Shown here: piece after piece, positions 11,999 to 30,296 of the stretch
Numbering within the stretch: position 1 is the first letter of the stretch
Layout of the letters: each line of letters begins with the position of its first letter
Source: Paenibacillus sp. G2S3
Lineage (GTDB): Bacteria; Bacillota; Bacilli; Paenibacillales; Paenibacillaceae
Length of the DNA: 64,000 nt
NCBI RefSeq assembly: GCF_030123105.1
Contig: NZ_CP126095.1
Span: 186,001 to 250,000 of the forward strand
Direction of reading: 5' to 3'
Program-made: the position numbers and the translations under genes
Notes under the pieces: model-generated
Told to the model about the DNA's origin: nothing
Seen by the model: only the letters and a program-made list of their open reading frames with translations
Database searches by the model: none

Positions 11999-12360
11999 GG
12001 GGCCGTTCTTGGATTCGACGGGGGTAGTTCGAGCATGAGTAGCGAGTAGTGGGGACGCGTCCGCTTCATCAACGCTAAAGCCTATTAAACGGCAAACAAC
12101 AAAACAACTACGCTTTCGCAGCCTAAGAAACTGCGCGCGTGCTTCTACCCTGCATCGCCCATGTGACAGGGATAGGGGCTAACAAGTAGTGGGATACGCC
12201 GTCTGGTCTCCGCCTGGGGTCAACGGAAGAAGATAATCAGGCTGACCCAACGTATAGCCGGTTACGGGGCGATACTCGGGTGACATCAAAACTGTGACTA
12301 CACTCGTAGAAGCTTATGTGCCGTTATCTTCGGACAGGGGTTCGACTCCCCTCGGCTCCA
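11999..12360 (+). ncRNA. ssrA: Transfer-messenger RNA (tmRNA)
   Basis: Rescues stalled ribosomes and tags the unfinished protein for proteolysis. The 5' end GGGGCCG (11999-12005) pairs over seven positions with the 3' end CGGCTCC (12353-12359), with discriminator A at 12360; CCA is not encoded. The conserved GGATTCGACGGG follows the 5' stem, and the T-arm loop TTCGACT is near the 3' end. The tag reading frame runs 12091-12126: resume codon GGC, encoding GKQQNNYAFAA then TAA. With the charged alanine the tag ends in AFAA rather than the common ALAA. The 3' 85 bp are duplicated downstream (see the repeat entry at 13042). Confidence 0.97.
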
Positions 12361-12362
12361 TA
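12278..12362 (+). repeat. ssrA 3'-end direct repeat, copy 1 (probable attachment site)
   Basis: The last 85 bp of the functional tmRNA locus. It matches 13042-13126 at 83 of 85 positions by eye. The differences are T to A in the T-loop and T to C in the acceptor strand. tmRNA 3' ends are well-known targets of tyrosine recombinases, so this is probably the att site regenerated by an integrated element. Confidence 0.85.
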
Positions 12363-12364
12363 AG

Positions 12365-12392
12365 AAAAACCCGCTAAAATAGCGGGTTTTTT
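12365..12392 (+). terminator. Terminator after ssrA
   Basis: Stem CCCGCTA / TAGCGGG, loop AAA, flanked by A5 and T6. It lies inside the inserted segment, so it was probably brought in by the element. Confidence 0.9.
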
Positions 12393-12410
12393 GCTGTTTA
12401 GTGGTTGAAT

Positions 12411-12468
12411 TGTAGACCGAATGTAGACAAGGAATTATGGGGAACTAAAAGTGTTCATTATTGTAGAC
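12411..12468 (+). repeat. Three copies of TGTAGAC next to the ssrA junction
   Basis: TGTAGAC occurs at 12411-12417, 12422-12428 and 12462-12468, all in the same orientation and just inside the inserted segment. Short direct repeats in this position resemble arm-type binding sites of tyrosine recombinases; that reading is inference. Confidence 0.45.
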
Positions 12469-12616
12469 ATGCTGTTTACATCTAAAATTAGATCATTCAC
12501 TTTAAAGTTAATTATTAGTGGCACATTTTCCGAAACTACATCTATAAGAGCTCGAACTGATATAAGATTATGGCATTAAGCATCCAAAAACAAAAATATT
12601 CGGAGGAATTACTATC

Positions 12617-12982
12617 ATGAGCTTTACTATTGATTATGTTAAAAACAAAAACAGAATTATTGTAACATCGGACGGTATGGAAGTTGAGGATGCCCTTGCG
12701 TACGCGGAACAATTTCCGAAAGTATTGAAGAAAACTAAGCGAGGATTCACAGGTATGACTGTAATTATTGGTGGCCTGGTATTTAAGCAAGAAGTGTTGG
12801 CAATTCTTGCTCCAACTGGTGAAGATGCTGTGAAAGCTGGAATGTCTACAAAACATAAATGGGTGTATGTTGCACCTACCTCGTTCTACAAAACGCAAAT
12901 GCATCGTATGTTTAAAGATATTGCAAACTTGTACGAATCGATAGAAGAAGCTGAAGCGTATCTTGATTCTGCGGGGAATTAG
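12617..12982 (+). CDS. Small STAS/SpoIIAA-like protein of unknown function, cargo between ssrA repeats
   Basis: 121 residues with no signal peptide or membrane segment. GGAGGA at 12602-12607 gives a convincing ribosome binding site. The pattern of an N-terminal beta hairpin, an amphipathic helix (EDALAYAEQFPKVLKK), a hydrophobic strand (GMTVIIGGL) and a C-terminal strand-plus-helix ending SIEEAEAYLDS resembles single-domain STAS-like (SpoIIAA-like) proteins, but no diagnostic residue can be named. It is the only gene between the two ssrA 3' repeats, with no integrase beside it, so it is the cargo of a remnant or trans-mobilised element. Function unknown. Confidence 0.75.
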   Translation: MSFTIDYVKNKNRIIVTSDGMEVEDALAYAEQFPKVLKKTKRGFTGMTVIIGGLVFKQEVLAILAPTGEDAVKAGMSTKHKWVYVAPTSFYKTQMHRMFKDIANLYESIEEAEAYLDSAGN

Positions 12983-13041
12983 CAACTTCTAAAAATTAAA
13001 AAAACTTTATGTGAACCTTCTGGCTGGTTAGAATGCTTCTA

Positions 13042-13126
13042 GGGTGACATCAAAACTGTGACTACACTCGTAGAAGCTTATGTGCCGTTATCTTCGGACA
13101 GGGGTTCGACACCCCTCGGCCCCATA
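13042..13126 (+). repeat. ssrA 3'-end direct repeat, copy 2 (probable distal attachment site)
   Basis: 85 bp matching the 3' end of ssrA with two substitutions and no 5' portion of tmRNA upstream. It still folds as T-arm and acceptor strand; the acceptor change replaces a G-U pair by G-C. It is followed 13 bp later by an AAGACACC hairpin, which was probably the original ssrA terminator before insertion. Confidence 0.85.
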
Positions 13127-13139
13127 TGGAGTATCAGTG

Positions 13140-13165
13140 AAAGACACCTTGAAGGGTGTCTTTTT
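13140..13165 (+). terminator. Terminator of the recurrent AAAGACACC family
   Basis: AAAGACACC / GGTGTCTTT with loop TTGAAG, then T-run. It is the first of at least eight copies of this hairpin in the window. Confidence 0.9.
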
Positions 13166-13504: not shown

Positions 13505-14812
13505 ATGTATGAGAATCAGACTTCTATGCACCATAAGCTGTTTATTATCGGCGCAGGTGCTGCCGGACTAATGGCCGCTGTTACTGCGCGTGATATGGGT
13601 ATCGATACTGCCATTCTGGAGGGTAACGACCGGATTGGAAAGAAGATATTAATGACAGGTGATGGCCGCTGTAACATTACGAATGAATCCACTGCAACGG
13701 GTACGGATGAAGCAATCGCTTTATCGCGCAAGTATCACAGTAATCAGGCCGGATTTCCACTTGCGGTATTGCAGCAATTTGGCATCCGTCAGACCATAGA
13801 TTTTTTCTCCTTTCTTGGGCTTCCGCTTACAAGATTGAAGGAGGGCTTGATGTATCCAATGTCGCTGCAGGCAGCAGCGGTGCTGGATATTTTCCAGCTT
13901 GCGCTGGAGGATCGGAATGTTCCGGTATACCTCAATAACAAAGTGTTGGATGTTACTGTTTCGAAGAATCATCCGCGCTTCAAGATAAAATGCCAAACGG
14001 AGACAGAGGAGGAGGTTGTTTATACTAGCGACTATCTACTTCTATCTGCGGGTGGCCTTGCCGGTCCAAATGCGGGAAAAGAACCTCCTGGGTATACACT
14101 TGCCGAACGTCTGGGACACACCCTAATTGAGCCTTTGCCGGCCATTGTGCAATTGAAGCTGCAATATCCGAACATGAGGGCACTGTCCACTATCAAATCT
14201 CAGGGACAAGCTCATATCATTGTGAACGGTAAAGTCATCTGCAGTGAACAGGGCGAAATTGCCTTCACGGATTATGGTATTACCGGCCCGCCAATTCTTC
14301 AGCTAAGCAGGAAGGCTGCGTATCATCTTGCAAGAGGAGAACAGGTAACATTGTCGGTTGATCTGATGCCGGGCCGCACGGAGGAAGAGTTAGTTGAGTT
14401 TTTAGAAAGGCTCTGGGAGACCTTTAGACACCGGACTGTGGCGGATTGCCTTGTTGGCATCTTCAATAAGAAGCTTGTTTCTGTCCTACTAAAAGAGACT
14501 GGCTTAGATCAACAGCCAGAGCTGCTTTGCCAGGATCTATCGATGAAAACCAAGGGGAAATTTTATCGAATCTTGAAGCGTTGGGAATTTAAAGTGACGG
14601 ATACCAATGGCTTTACGAATGCGCAAGTGACAGCCGGCGGCATTGATACGTCGGAACTCATCGAAGGAACGCTGGAATCCAAGCTGGTGCCTGGGCTGTA
14701 TTTGGCTGGCGAAGTGATGGATGTCGACGGAGATTTCGGCGGCTATAACCTGCAATGGGCCTGGAGTTCCGGATATGTGGCCGCGATGGCGCTAGCTAAG
14801 TCAATTCAATAA
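13505..14812 (+). CDS. BaiN/HI0933-family FAD-dependent oxidoreductase, first of tandem pair
   Basis: Predicted flavoprotein of 435 residues. The N-terminal dinucleotide motif GAGAAG (residues 16-21) follows a hydrophobic strand. GRIGKKILMTGDGRCNITN is the hallmark FAD-contact segment of the HI0933-like family, and the C-terminal DVDGDFGGYNLQWAWSSG motif is typical. Members include BaiN of bile-acid-metabolising clostridia; the substrate here is unknown. The ribosome binding site is weak (AAGGA, about 12 bases upstream). The next gene, 31 bp downstream, is a close paralogue, about 80% identical in the first 60 residues, so the pair arose by tandem duplication. Confidence 0.88.
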   Translation: MYENQTSMHHKLFIIGAGAAGLMAAVTARDMGIDTAILEGNDRIGKKILMTGDGRCNITNESTATGTDEAIALSRKYHSNQAGFPLAVLQQFGIRQTIDFFSFLGLPLTRLKEGLMYPMSLQAAAVLDIFQLALEDRNVPVYLNNKVLDVTVSKNHPRFKIKCQTETEEEVVYTSDYLLLSAGGLAGPNAGKEPPGYTLAERLGHTLIEPLPAIVQLKLQYPNMRALSTIKSQGQAHIIVNGKVICSEQGEIAFTDYGITGPPILQLSRKAAYHLARGEQVTLSVDLMPGRTEEELVEFLERLWETFRHRTVADCLVGIFNKKLVSVLLKETGLDQQPELLCQDLSMKTKGKFYRILKRWEFKVTDTNGFTNAQVTAGGIDTSELIEGTLESKLVPGLYLAGEVMDVDGDFGGYNLQWAWSSGYVAAMALAKSIQ

Positions 14813-14843: not shown

Positions 14844-16160
14844 ATGTATAAGGATCAGACTTCTAAGCACCACGAGCTGTTCATTATCGGTGGGGGTGCT
14901 GCAGGTCTAATGGCTGCAGTTACAGCGAGGGATCAAGGTATTGATACAGCAATTATTGAAAGCAATGACCGGCTTGGGAAGAAAATAATAACGACGGGTA
15001 ACGGGCGTTGCAACATTACGAACCAATCCACCGCCACTGGTACGGATGAAGCGGCCGCTTTATCACGCAAGTATCACAGTAATCAGGAAGGATTCCCAAT
15101 ACATGTATTGCGGCAATTCGGTGTCCGCCAAACGATCGAATTTTTCTCCTCGCTCGGGCTTCCTTTTGTAAGCTTGGAGAATGGCCGGATGTATCCGATG
15201 TCGCTGCAGGCGGCTTCGGTGCCGGGTGTATTTAAGCTGGCGCTGGAGGATCGGAATGTTCCCGTATATTATAAACATAAAGTGTTGGATGTTACCGTTT
15301 CGGAGGGACATCCGCGGTTCGCGATAACCTGCCAGACGGAGACAGAGGAACAGGTTGTGTATACCAGCGACTATCTTTTTCTATGTGCAGGCGGCCTTAC
15401 CGCTCCCAAAACGGGAACGGACGGCTCCGGTTATACGCTTGTCCAACGTCTGGGGCACACCCTGATCAACCCGGTGCCAGGCATTGTACAATTGAAGCTG
15501 GATTATCCGTATTTGAAGGAACTATCGGGCATCAAATTTGAGGGAGAGGGCCATGTTATCGTAAACAATGAAGTCATCCGCACTGAGTCTGGTGAGATTC
15601 TTTTTACGGACTATGGTATCTCGGGCCCGCCCATACTTCAGCTCAGCAGAAAGGCTGCGTATAATCTCGGAATAGGAGAATCGGTGACATTGTCGGTTGA
15701 TTTAATGCCGGAGCGCACGGAGGAAGAGTTAATTGATTTTCTGGAGATCCACTGGGGGATCTTCGGACACCGGACGGTTGCCGATTCTTTTGTGGGCATC
15801 GTCAGCAAGAAACTGATTCCAGTTCTGCTGAAGGAGGCTGGAATTGATCAACAGCCGCACTTGCTTTGTATGGATTTATCATGGAAAACCAAGAAAATAT
15901 TTTATCGAATCTTGAAACGTTGGGAATTTAAAGTGACCGATACCAACAGCTTCACGAATGCACAAACAACAGCCGGTGGCATCGATACGACGGAGCTAAT
16001 CGAAGGAACGTTAGAATCTAAGTTAGTCCCTGGGCTGTATTTGGCAGGTGAAGTGATGGATGTCGATGGAGATTGCGGCGGCTATAACCTGCAATGGGCC
16101 TGGAGCTCCGGCTATGCTGCCGCGATGGCGCTTGCTAAACGACGTGTTAGCGCCACGTAA
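14844..16160 (+). CDS. BaiN/HI0933-family FAD-dependent oxidoreductase, second of tandem pair
   Basis: 438 residues with the same architecture as its neighbour: nucleotide motif GGGAAG near residue 16, GKKIITTGNGRCNITN FAD segment, and C-terminal DVDGDCGGYNLQWAWSSG. The leaders also resemble each other: both have an A/G-rich AAAGG(G)ATGCAT stretch shortly before the start, so the duplication included the leader. Substrate unknown. It probably forms one transcript with the upstream copy and ends before the hairpin at 16276-16303. Confidence 0.88.
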   Translation: MYKDQTSKHHELFIIGGGAAGLMAAVTARDQGIDTAIIESNDRLGKKIITTGNGRCNITNQSTATGTDEAAALSRKYHSNQEGFPIHVLRQFGVRQTIEFFSSLGLPFVSLENGRMYPMSLQAASVPGVFKLALEDRNVPVYYKHKVLDVTVSEGHPRFAITCQTETEEQVVYTSDYLFLCAGGLTAPKTGTDGSGYTLVQRLGHTLINPVPGIVQLKLDYPYLKELSGIKFEGEGHVIVNNEVIRTESGEILFTDYGISGPPILQLSRKAAYNLGIGESVTLSVDLMPERTEEELIDFLEIHWGIFGHRTVADSFVGIVSKKLIPVLLKEAGIDQQPHLLCMDLSWKTKKIFYRILKRWEFKVTDTNSFTNAQTTAGGIDTTELIEGTLESKLVPGLYLAGEVMDVDGDCGGYNLQWAWSSGYAAAMALAKRRVSAT

Positions 16161-28943: not shown

Positions 28944-30296
28944 CTATTTTCCACTTGGCAGTAGTTTATTCAATAAGATCGCTGCTAATGAAGCAGCTAG
29001 AATAGGTGAGCCTAATAAATATTGCACGAATGAAGGTAAGGAATGCAAGTAGTCGCCAGGAATGAGTACCAAAGCTAATGTGATAATCATCGGTATTGCG
29101 ATAATATACATTTCTTTTTCGCCAATCGTTACATTCTTCATCACCTGCACACCATTAATTGCGATGATCCCGCACACGATAGCGAAGACGCCGCCAATTA
29201 CAGCGGATGGAATGGAAGAGATCAGAGCAGCTAATTTACCAGAACAACCGAAGAGGACAAACCATCCTCCTACAGCGAGGAAAACTCGACGGCTGGCTAC
29301 ACCTGTGATGGAGATAATACCGGCATTGGTTGAATAGCCTGTAACAGGCGTCGATCCGAGAGCAGAAGCGATAAGACAGCCAATCCCCTCACCAATAACC
29401 CCTTTGTTAATATTTTCGTCTGTTAAAGGCTTATTGATTACGTTGCTGACAGCAAACCAGGTACCTGTTGTTTCAGCTAGCAGTACGAGATAAATAATGA
29501 CCATGGTGATAATAGCAGAAAAGTTGAAAGAGAATCCGAAATCTACAAAAGCGATACGCGGCATGCTAAACCAGTTCGCTTTGCTAATCGCTGAGAAATC
29601 TAACACACCCATCATATTAGCAGAAATACATCCAACTACTAATGCCATCATGACGGAAATAATTCGGAAGATCGAACCCTTATTACGGAACATAGAACCG
29701 AGAATTACGAATAAAAGGAGTGTACCCGCTGAAATAAGGGCTAACAAAACGTTCTGATTGATTGAAGCGCCTGAAGCTCCATAGATATTGTCTCTTATAG
29801 CAACAGGTAATAAAGAAAGACCAACTATGAATATGATCGTACCACCTACAATGGGTGGGATAAAGTTCTTAACGATTTTATTAAAGATCCCGACATAGCC
29901 CAAAATAATAACTAGAACCGCACCGATTAAGCTGGCACCTAACACGGAGCTCCAACCCAGCTCCCCGCCGCCACTAGCGGCATAAATACTGACAATCGCA
30001 CCAAGCGGAACATAAGATGGACCTTGCGCGATAGGAAGCTTCATACAGAAATAAGTCTGCACAATCGTTGCAAGTCCAGCAGCAATAAATGTGGATTGAA
30101 TTAACGCGCTTGACTGATTCGGTTGTAAGCCGATTAACATGGCAATCAGGAAAGGAACCACATAAACGTCCATTGCCAAAACATGTTGAAAGCCTAGGAT
30201 GATGGATTTACTGAATGATACTTTTTCATCGGGATGAACGGTTAATAGTTGTGACTTTAATGGCGCTTGATCCTGCACGTTTGCTTGTGTTTCCAC
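28944..30296 (-). CDS. Nucleobase:cation symporter-2 family permease (purine uptake)
   Basis: 450 residues with about 12-14 membrane segments and the NCS2/xanthine-uracil permease pattern: IVQTYFCMKLPIAQGPSYVP in the substrate region and VLLAETTGTWFAVSNVI, where the conserved Glu sits. GTG start at 30296 with AAGGTGG 8 bases upstream. It directly follows guanine deaminase on the same strand (38 bp apart), so guanine, hypoxanthine or xanthine are the likely substrates; exact specificity is not visible. Confidence 0.9.
   Translation of the reverse strand: METQANVQDQAPLKSQLLTVHPDEKVSFSKSIILGFQHVLAMDVYVVPFLIAMLIGLQPNQSSALIQSTFIAAGLATIVQTYFCMKLPIAQGPSYVPLGAIVSIYAASGGGELGWSSVLGASLIGAVLVIILGYVGIFNKIVKNFIPPIVGGTIIFIVGLSLLPVAIRDNIYGASGASINQNVLLALISAGTLLLFVILGSMFRNKGSIFRIISVMMALVVGCISANMMGVLDFSAISKANWFSMPRIAFVDFGFSFNFSAIITMVIIYLVLLAETTGTWFAVSNVINKPLTDENINKGVIGEGIGCLIASALGSTPVTGYSTNAGIISITGVASRRVFLAVGGWFVLFGCSGKLAALISSIPSAVIGGVFAIVCGIIAINGVQVMKNVTIGEKEMYIIAIPMIITLALVLIPGDYLHSLPSFVQYLLGSPILAASLAAILLNKLLPSGK

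Follow-up and report, generated by a model that had tools for sequence, protein, structure and literature searches.

The closest precedent for the locus described here is the series of tandem islands behind ssrA in Dehalococcoides, where direct repeats of the ssrA 3' end, 20 bp long, form the boundaries and the integrase, DsiB, is of the serine type (PMC3146451). In that work, 15 of 31 such islands carry no integration module and were proposed as possible cis-mobilizable elements, which contradicts the premise of the first-pass annotation of our sequence that known islands at this site encode their integrase. Elements of the CIME and accretion type have att-like flanking repeats, have lost their integration genes and stack with other elements (PMC5704250). 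Islander collects islands in tRNA and tmRNA genes and rejects candidates that lack an integrase or are shorter than 2 kb (PMC4383910). Literature searches on Paenibacillus tmRNA or ssrA together with integrases, including broader ones, gave no publication on the subject among the matches listed, subscription journals being mostly outside their coverage.

The window, a 64,000-nucleotide stretch of DNA from Paenibacillus sp. G2S3 (G000:C1:186001-250000), contains an intact ssrA gene followed by a short interval that ends in a second copy of the ssrA 3' end. The features are as follows.

11999..12363, + strand: ssrA (tmRNA gene), intact (ARAGORN; Rfam RF00023)
12275..12362, + strand: proximal repeat copy, the 3' end of the functional ssrA (sequence repeat; 85-nt core 12278-12362)
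12364..12392, + strand: new terminator-like hairpin of the CCCGCT..AGCGGG type (type also present after the ssrA ends of integrase islands)
12411..12480, + strand: putative integrase arm sites, TGTAGAC three times and a decayed inverted copy (TGTTTACA) (motif scan, comparison)
12617..12982, + strand: 121-aa gene (ORF121), predicted STAS fold (purifying selection in six genomes)
13039..13126, + strand: distal repeat copy, a displaced ssrA 3' end (85-nt core 13042-13126)
13139..13164, + strand: displaced ssrA terminator, probably the original one (AAGACACCTT..GGTGTCTT type; directly after ssrA in 40 of 95 loci)

The two 85-nt cores differ at two positions, as had been noted from the sequence, and degenerate similarity of the distal copy reaches back to about 13026; the right copy is about 88–100 nt long. 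The repeat is real: no other place in the window is identical at more than 38 of the 85 positions (maximum of 43 of 85 in 20 shuffles). The 678 bp between the copies are AT-rich (1.1 percentile of the window) and hold a single gene-like ORF; similarity to integrases was not found within them at E ≤ 1 and no integrase pseudogene is left, in agreement with the earlier description of one enclosed gene and no integrase. The arrangement resembles the islands of Islander in that an intact tmRNA gene marks one end and a displaced 3' fragment, oriented alike, marks the opposite one, and differs from them in its size and in lacking an integrase, so that the filters of that program would reject it. It resembles a CIME in being flanked by att-like repeats, stacked and integrase-less while keeping an arm of an integrase family; in the positions that would correspond to attL and attR, three arm motifs are intact, one is decayed and the right copy is of unusual length. 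The label CIME-like is used here for these sequence features, apart from conjugative descent and cis mobilization. Downstream of the distal copy are two adjacent similar genes (13505-14812 and 14844-16160; 435 and 438 aa), presumably flavoprotein-like, whose first 157 nt are 78% identical and which occur as the same pair downstream in several relatives. A tRNA-Thr(agt) at 29918-30012 on the minus strand was called by ARAGORN only, is absent from Rfam and is probably spurious.

Comparison within the genus supports insertion at the tmRNA 3' end, as had been proposed. A close relative of ORF121 is present at ssrA in only six of 100 genomes, an outcome different from the one named beforehand as fatal to the insertion model, namely the same arrangement in every relative. 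In G044 the ssrA gene is identical to that of the window and is directly followed by a terminator of the type at 13139-13164; this genome, 72% complete and with a contig of 4.9 kb, yielded no close ORF121 relative. In the outgroup G005, ssrA lies 425 bp upstream of the gene that also follows in the window, and the DNA between them contains no ssrA copy. The hairpin at 12364-12392 is of another type, one that occurs with integrase islands. The terminator types and these two genomes together indicate that the proximal end arrived with the element and that the original ssrA end is the one now found at the distal position, which bears out the earlier proposal that the proximal copy restores tmRNA and supplies a new terminator. 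An exact empty site with the flank of the window was not found among the same-genus genomes compared. The contents of the six carrier loci differ, with no exceptions of the G033 type: in G039 another module of 0.73 kb lies between ssrA and the ORF121 element, the distal copy is followed by ∼1.5 kb of additional DNA in G057 and G081, and it has been lost from G038. The window element is 91.1% identical to that of G039, compared with 90.2% for the core (∼7 kb upstream of ssrA), as expected under vertical descent.

The DNA behind the functional ssrA can be assigned, on sequence comparison, to the left arm of a family of tmRNA-targeting tyrosine-integrase islands. Its first 135 bp match L041 (83%) and L086 (81%), with shorter matches at other loci, and contain TGTAGAC at 12411, 12422 and 12462 and the decayed inverted copy at 12473. 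Stretches with at least two TGTAG(A/C/T)C motifs were compared between ssrA-linked and background DNA: such motifs are present in 19 of 190 stretches behind ssrA 3' ends and in 23 of 7261 background windows. An arm 20-mer, with one mismatch allowed, has 13 matches, distributed over 10 of the 100 whole genomes; ten immediately follow an ssrA copy, one is ∼8 kb further down an ssrA region and two are unlinked (G035), and the reversed control gave one match. We infer that the TGTAGAC repeats are integrase arm sites. The distal copy reads GCTTCTA where the proximal one has GATACTC, an apparent attP mark that was discarded because the same variant occurs in the functional ssrA of other species and is thus an ssrA allele, not an attachment-specific signature.

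The integrase of L040 contains PF00589 and a SAM-like N-terminal domain. Its relatives (at least 55% identity) occur in six of 100 genomes, each at most 12 kb downstream of ssrA, with the next best match at 40%. Intact, broken or remnant copies are present around ssrA in nine of 100 loci, and three ORFs (L040, L041 and L066) reach at least 370 aa. The gene starts 110–213 bp behind an ssrA end in L040, L075, L078 and L035 and is a remnant 213 bp behind one on the opposite strand in L114, and in the full-size islands L041 and L066 it lies ∼11 kb further on, adjoined in L041 by a resolvase-like gene. The L041 integrase also has a small DNA-binding protein encoded beside it, a putative excisionase. 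Six elements combine a TGTAG-type arm with a short right copy, which starts at about nt 330–336 in five of them and at about nt 314 in L072; L040 and L041 have an intact integrase and L116 a truncated one, and none was found in L072, L086 and L120. The genome of the window has eight PF00589 matches, the best of which is 27% identical to the L040 protein, so a cognate integrase of the ssrA family was not found there, nor was a PF07508 match. The same genome contains four tyrosine-recombinase genes in a row (G000:C1:763108-766905). A search for other recombinases in the modules, with a tyrosine-recombinase profile (23 seeds, from 38 loci offered) and phmmer, recovered only the one ssrA family. 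A regular-expression search located an HTLRKT-containing ORF of 187 aa in L038 (12838-13401) and L102 (3997-4560; oriented coordinates), downstream of the arrays and outside bounded modules, which is possibly a tyrosine recombinase consisting of the catalytic domain only. A prophage origin was considered and rejected: an ssrA-plus-arm query matches 16 phage records in short tmRNA-end pieces only (one annotated as integrase and one as SsrA), all 2396 phage records matching the integrase are below 60% identity, and six exact peptide patterns of the integrase occur on no viral contig.

The window interval is one unit of a genus-wide system of stacked cassettes behind tmRNA. ssrA and up to 17.6 kb of downstream DNA were fetched for 96 genomes, the window being the 97th of 100 (G012, G022 and G089 are outside the fetched set), which gave 100 loci, some of them ended by contig ends. 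Copies were catalogued mechanically, with only nhmmer matches better than E 1e-3 and intervals of at least 100 bp retained, so that very short ssrA copies are under-counted. A full ssrA is present in 96 of the Paenibacillus genomes; within ∼17.6 kb, 65 of these show one to four further same-strand copies (one in 35 loci, two in 18, three in nine and four in three) and 31 have none. Across all 100 loci, 117 partial copies lie on the same strand and three on the opposite strand. Inverted fragments in L056 (1520-1627) and L114 (1482-1591) are located just upstream of a common 585-aa ORF (81% identical) that lies within the first module at both loci. Consecutive copies bound 112 intervals in 67 loci, of which 39 do not exceed 1.1 kb, 59 do not exceed 2.2 kb and 32 are longer than 5 kb; one bounded module has an intact integrase of the ssrA tyrosine family and one a fragment. 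Right copies that reach nt 355 (n = 95) start before nt 110 in six cases, at 110–250 in 32, at 251–300 in 49 and later in eight, from nt 52 upward. In a family search of other genera, 102 of 175 genomes gave at least two ssrA-end matches, a rough count since three candidates were scored per genome and matches anywhere in the genome were counted.

In the cargo of the arrays, 68 protein clusters recur in at least two modules. From modules of no more than 3.5 kb, 137 ORFs were picked, and a Pfam scan of 117 of their proteins, leaving aside shadow ORFs and very short ones, found PDDEXK_2 (15 of 117), Fic/Doc (six), Zeta toxin (five) and Glyoxalase (five) to be the commonest families, and PADLOC matches also occur among small-module proteins. 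A PDDEXK_2 gene, which we take to be Rpn-like, is a frequent first module ∼100 bp behind ssrA (L039, L064, L080, L075 and others). Compared with Dehalococcoides, the integrase family is of the tyrosine (PF00589) and not the serine (DsiB) type, the repeats measure from ∼28 to more than 300 nt and many modules are only ∼1 kb with one or two genes. Integron cassette arrays are also small one- or two-gene units behind a single insertion site. The ssrA units share with them toxin-antitoxin-like, glyoxalase-like and uncharacterised genes, and differ in that they end in tmRNA 3' ends and each carry their own terminator.

Some integrase-less modules appear to have moved between species. Module identity was compared with that of ∼7 kb of DNA upstream of ssrA, and in the following pairs, chosen because of their visible likeness, the module is the more conserved: the 0.73–0.76-kb unit of G039/G009 (91.4 versus 82.1%, homology stopping at the right copy), an HNH unit (G031/G052, 92.2 versus 82.1%; G031/G066, 91.5 versus 82.9%; G052/G066, 97.5 versus 88.7%), a deaminase unit (G027/G037, 91.5 versus 81.2%), a zeta-like unit (G071/G031, 95.0 versus 82.9%; G033/G031, 94.9 versus 83.4%; G033/G071, 99.6 versus 90.7%) and a VOC unit (G090/G049, 92.9 versus 81.8%, with an upstream alignment of only 1.8 kb). 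An excess of 8–12 points in several integrase-less modules supports horizontal movement. The C57 unit (89.4% for the module, 91.5% upstream) matches vertical descent. Among 263 module gene pairs compared with smpB, the median excess is 3.0 points, with 52 pairs more than 10 points above and 52 more than 5 below. Relatives of the 120-aa C26 protein at 81% identity or more occur in 11 genomes, nine of which have the gene on the ssrA contig at most 28 kb downstream of ssrA. L119 and L124 have two neighbouring modules in common, so homologous transfer of longer array pieces is possible. The first-pass description of a single mini-island was sound as to insertion and overlooked both the tandem array and the movement of comparable modules.

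A second mini-element is L120 (G096), ∼0.66 kb in total and without an integrase. Behind ssrA it consists of an arm, in which TGTAGAC occurs three times, a single gene for a 155-aa protein and a repeat that matches the final 28 nt of ssrA perfectly. Its terminator stem differs in sequence from that of the window, and a second arm of the same kind comes next. G096 has no match to the ssrA-family integrase at E 1e-20. The 155-aa cargo protein has full-length relatives at 59–67% identity and some fragments, with matches in 15 of 100 genomes overall, the sole ssrA-adjacent one being that of G096 itself.

The window interval is, with reasonable probability, a CIME-like remnant of a tmRNA-targeting tyrosine-integrase island that has lost its integrase and is now a single module within a stack. 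An island of the L040/L041/L066 family would have recombined into the T-arm part of ssrA, and its own ssrA 3' end and terminator would have restored the tmRNA gene, displacing the old 3' end and terminator downstream. A deletion that preceded the split of the six sampled species would then have removed the integrase, bringing the left arm next to what are now the cargo and the right copy; the element would since have been inherited vertically, with selection maintaining the STAS-fold gene. We infer the responsible recombinase, the deletion-fusion and the present immobility from this comparison, and an old, fixed, integrase-deleted element is the most likely description. The length of the right copy argues against the remnant reading, as most integrase-type elements have ∼30 nt; a deletion that joined the island left arm to the cargo and right end of an older module is a candidate explanation. 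The lack of an integrase pseudogene in the interval, and of an exact empty site with the window flank among the genomes compared, also counts against it. The first-pass annotation had left decay and movement in trans side by side. A non-autonomous, MITE-like mini-element, with a passenger gene between ends recognised by the ssrA integrase family, is suggested by the same design in L120 and by the identity excess of other integrase-less modules of 0.6–1.2 kb. We consider it unlikely for the window copy, while allowing it an appreciable chance: this element tracks its hosts, its inverted arm site is decayed, and its genome, like G096, has no cognate integrase (E ≤ 1e-20; none above 27% identity in the genome of the window). 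The left arm together with vertical inheritance favours decay.

Two explanations dispense with a specific recombinase at present. Homologous recombination between ssrA copies, by RecA and with DNA from relatives, could add and remove modules with no integrase now acting; it would account for the scattered starts of right copies, for the variation of their length within one module family and for the adjoining modules shared by L119 and L124. As a full account it is improbable, because the TGTAGAC arm is tied to ssrA ends and integrase genes, many copies begin at similar positions and foreign cargo must still become joined to an ssrA end somehow. A simple tandem duplication of the 3' end of ssrA, combined with a separate origin of the enclosed gene, is compatible with the direct repeat by itself; the terminators of the two copies differ, the interval contains an integrase-island arm, and comparable structures with differing contents are present in the 65 genomes described above. 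The terminator swap in particular disfavours duplication, which we regard as very improbable.

For the genus as a whole, it is conceivable, though we put it forward only tentatively, that the tmRNA gene of Paenibacillaceae hosts integron-like cassettes of one or two genes that are inserted in trans by a rarely present tyrosine integrase (or through recombination of ssrA copies with one another), pass from species to species and are reordered, with tmRNA restored each time. Structures of this kind lie behind ssrA in 65 of 96 Paenibacillus genomes, yet a search demanding an integrase and at least 2 kb, as Islander does, would miss the class. The small modules, if they move in trans, would make a minimal vehicle for gene cassettes, with toxin-antitoxin-like, HNH, nuclease, VOC and uncharacterised genes as their load.

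The product of the cargo gene in the window is predicted to adopt a STAS fold, in line with its initial description as STAS-like. The gene is under purifying selection, with pN/pS of 0.06–0.40 across 15 pairs from the six carrier genomes. The protein matches no family in Pfam or PADLOC at E 0.001 and has two chance-level matches only in Pfam at E up to 1. An antibody domain was suggested by a single marginal PDB sequence-profile match (E 0.0017), with nothing convincing, and was dismissed. A search with exact peptide patterns located the gene in one named record, Paenibacillus sp. VTT E-133291, at 93% identity.
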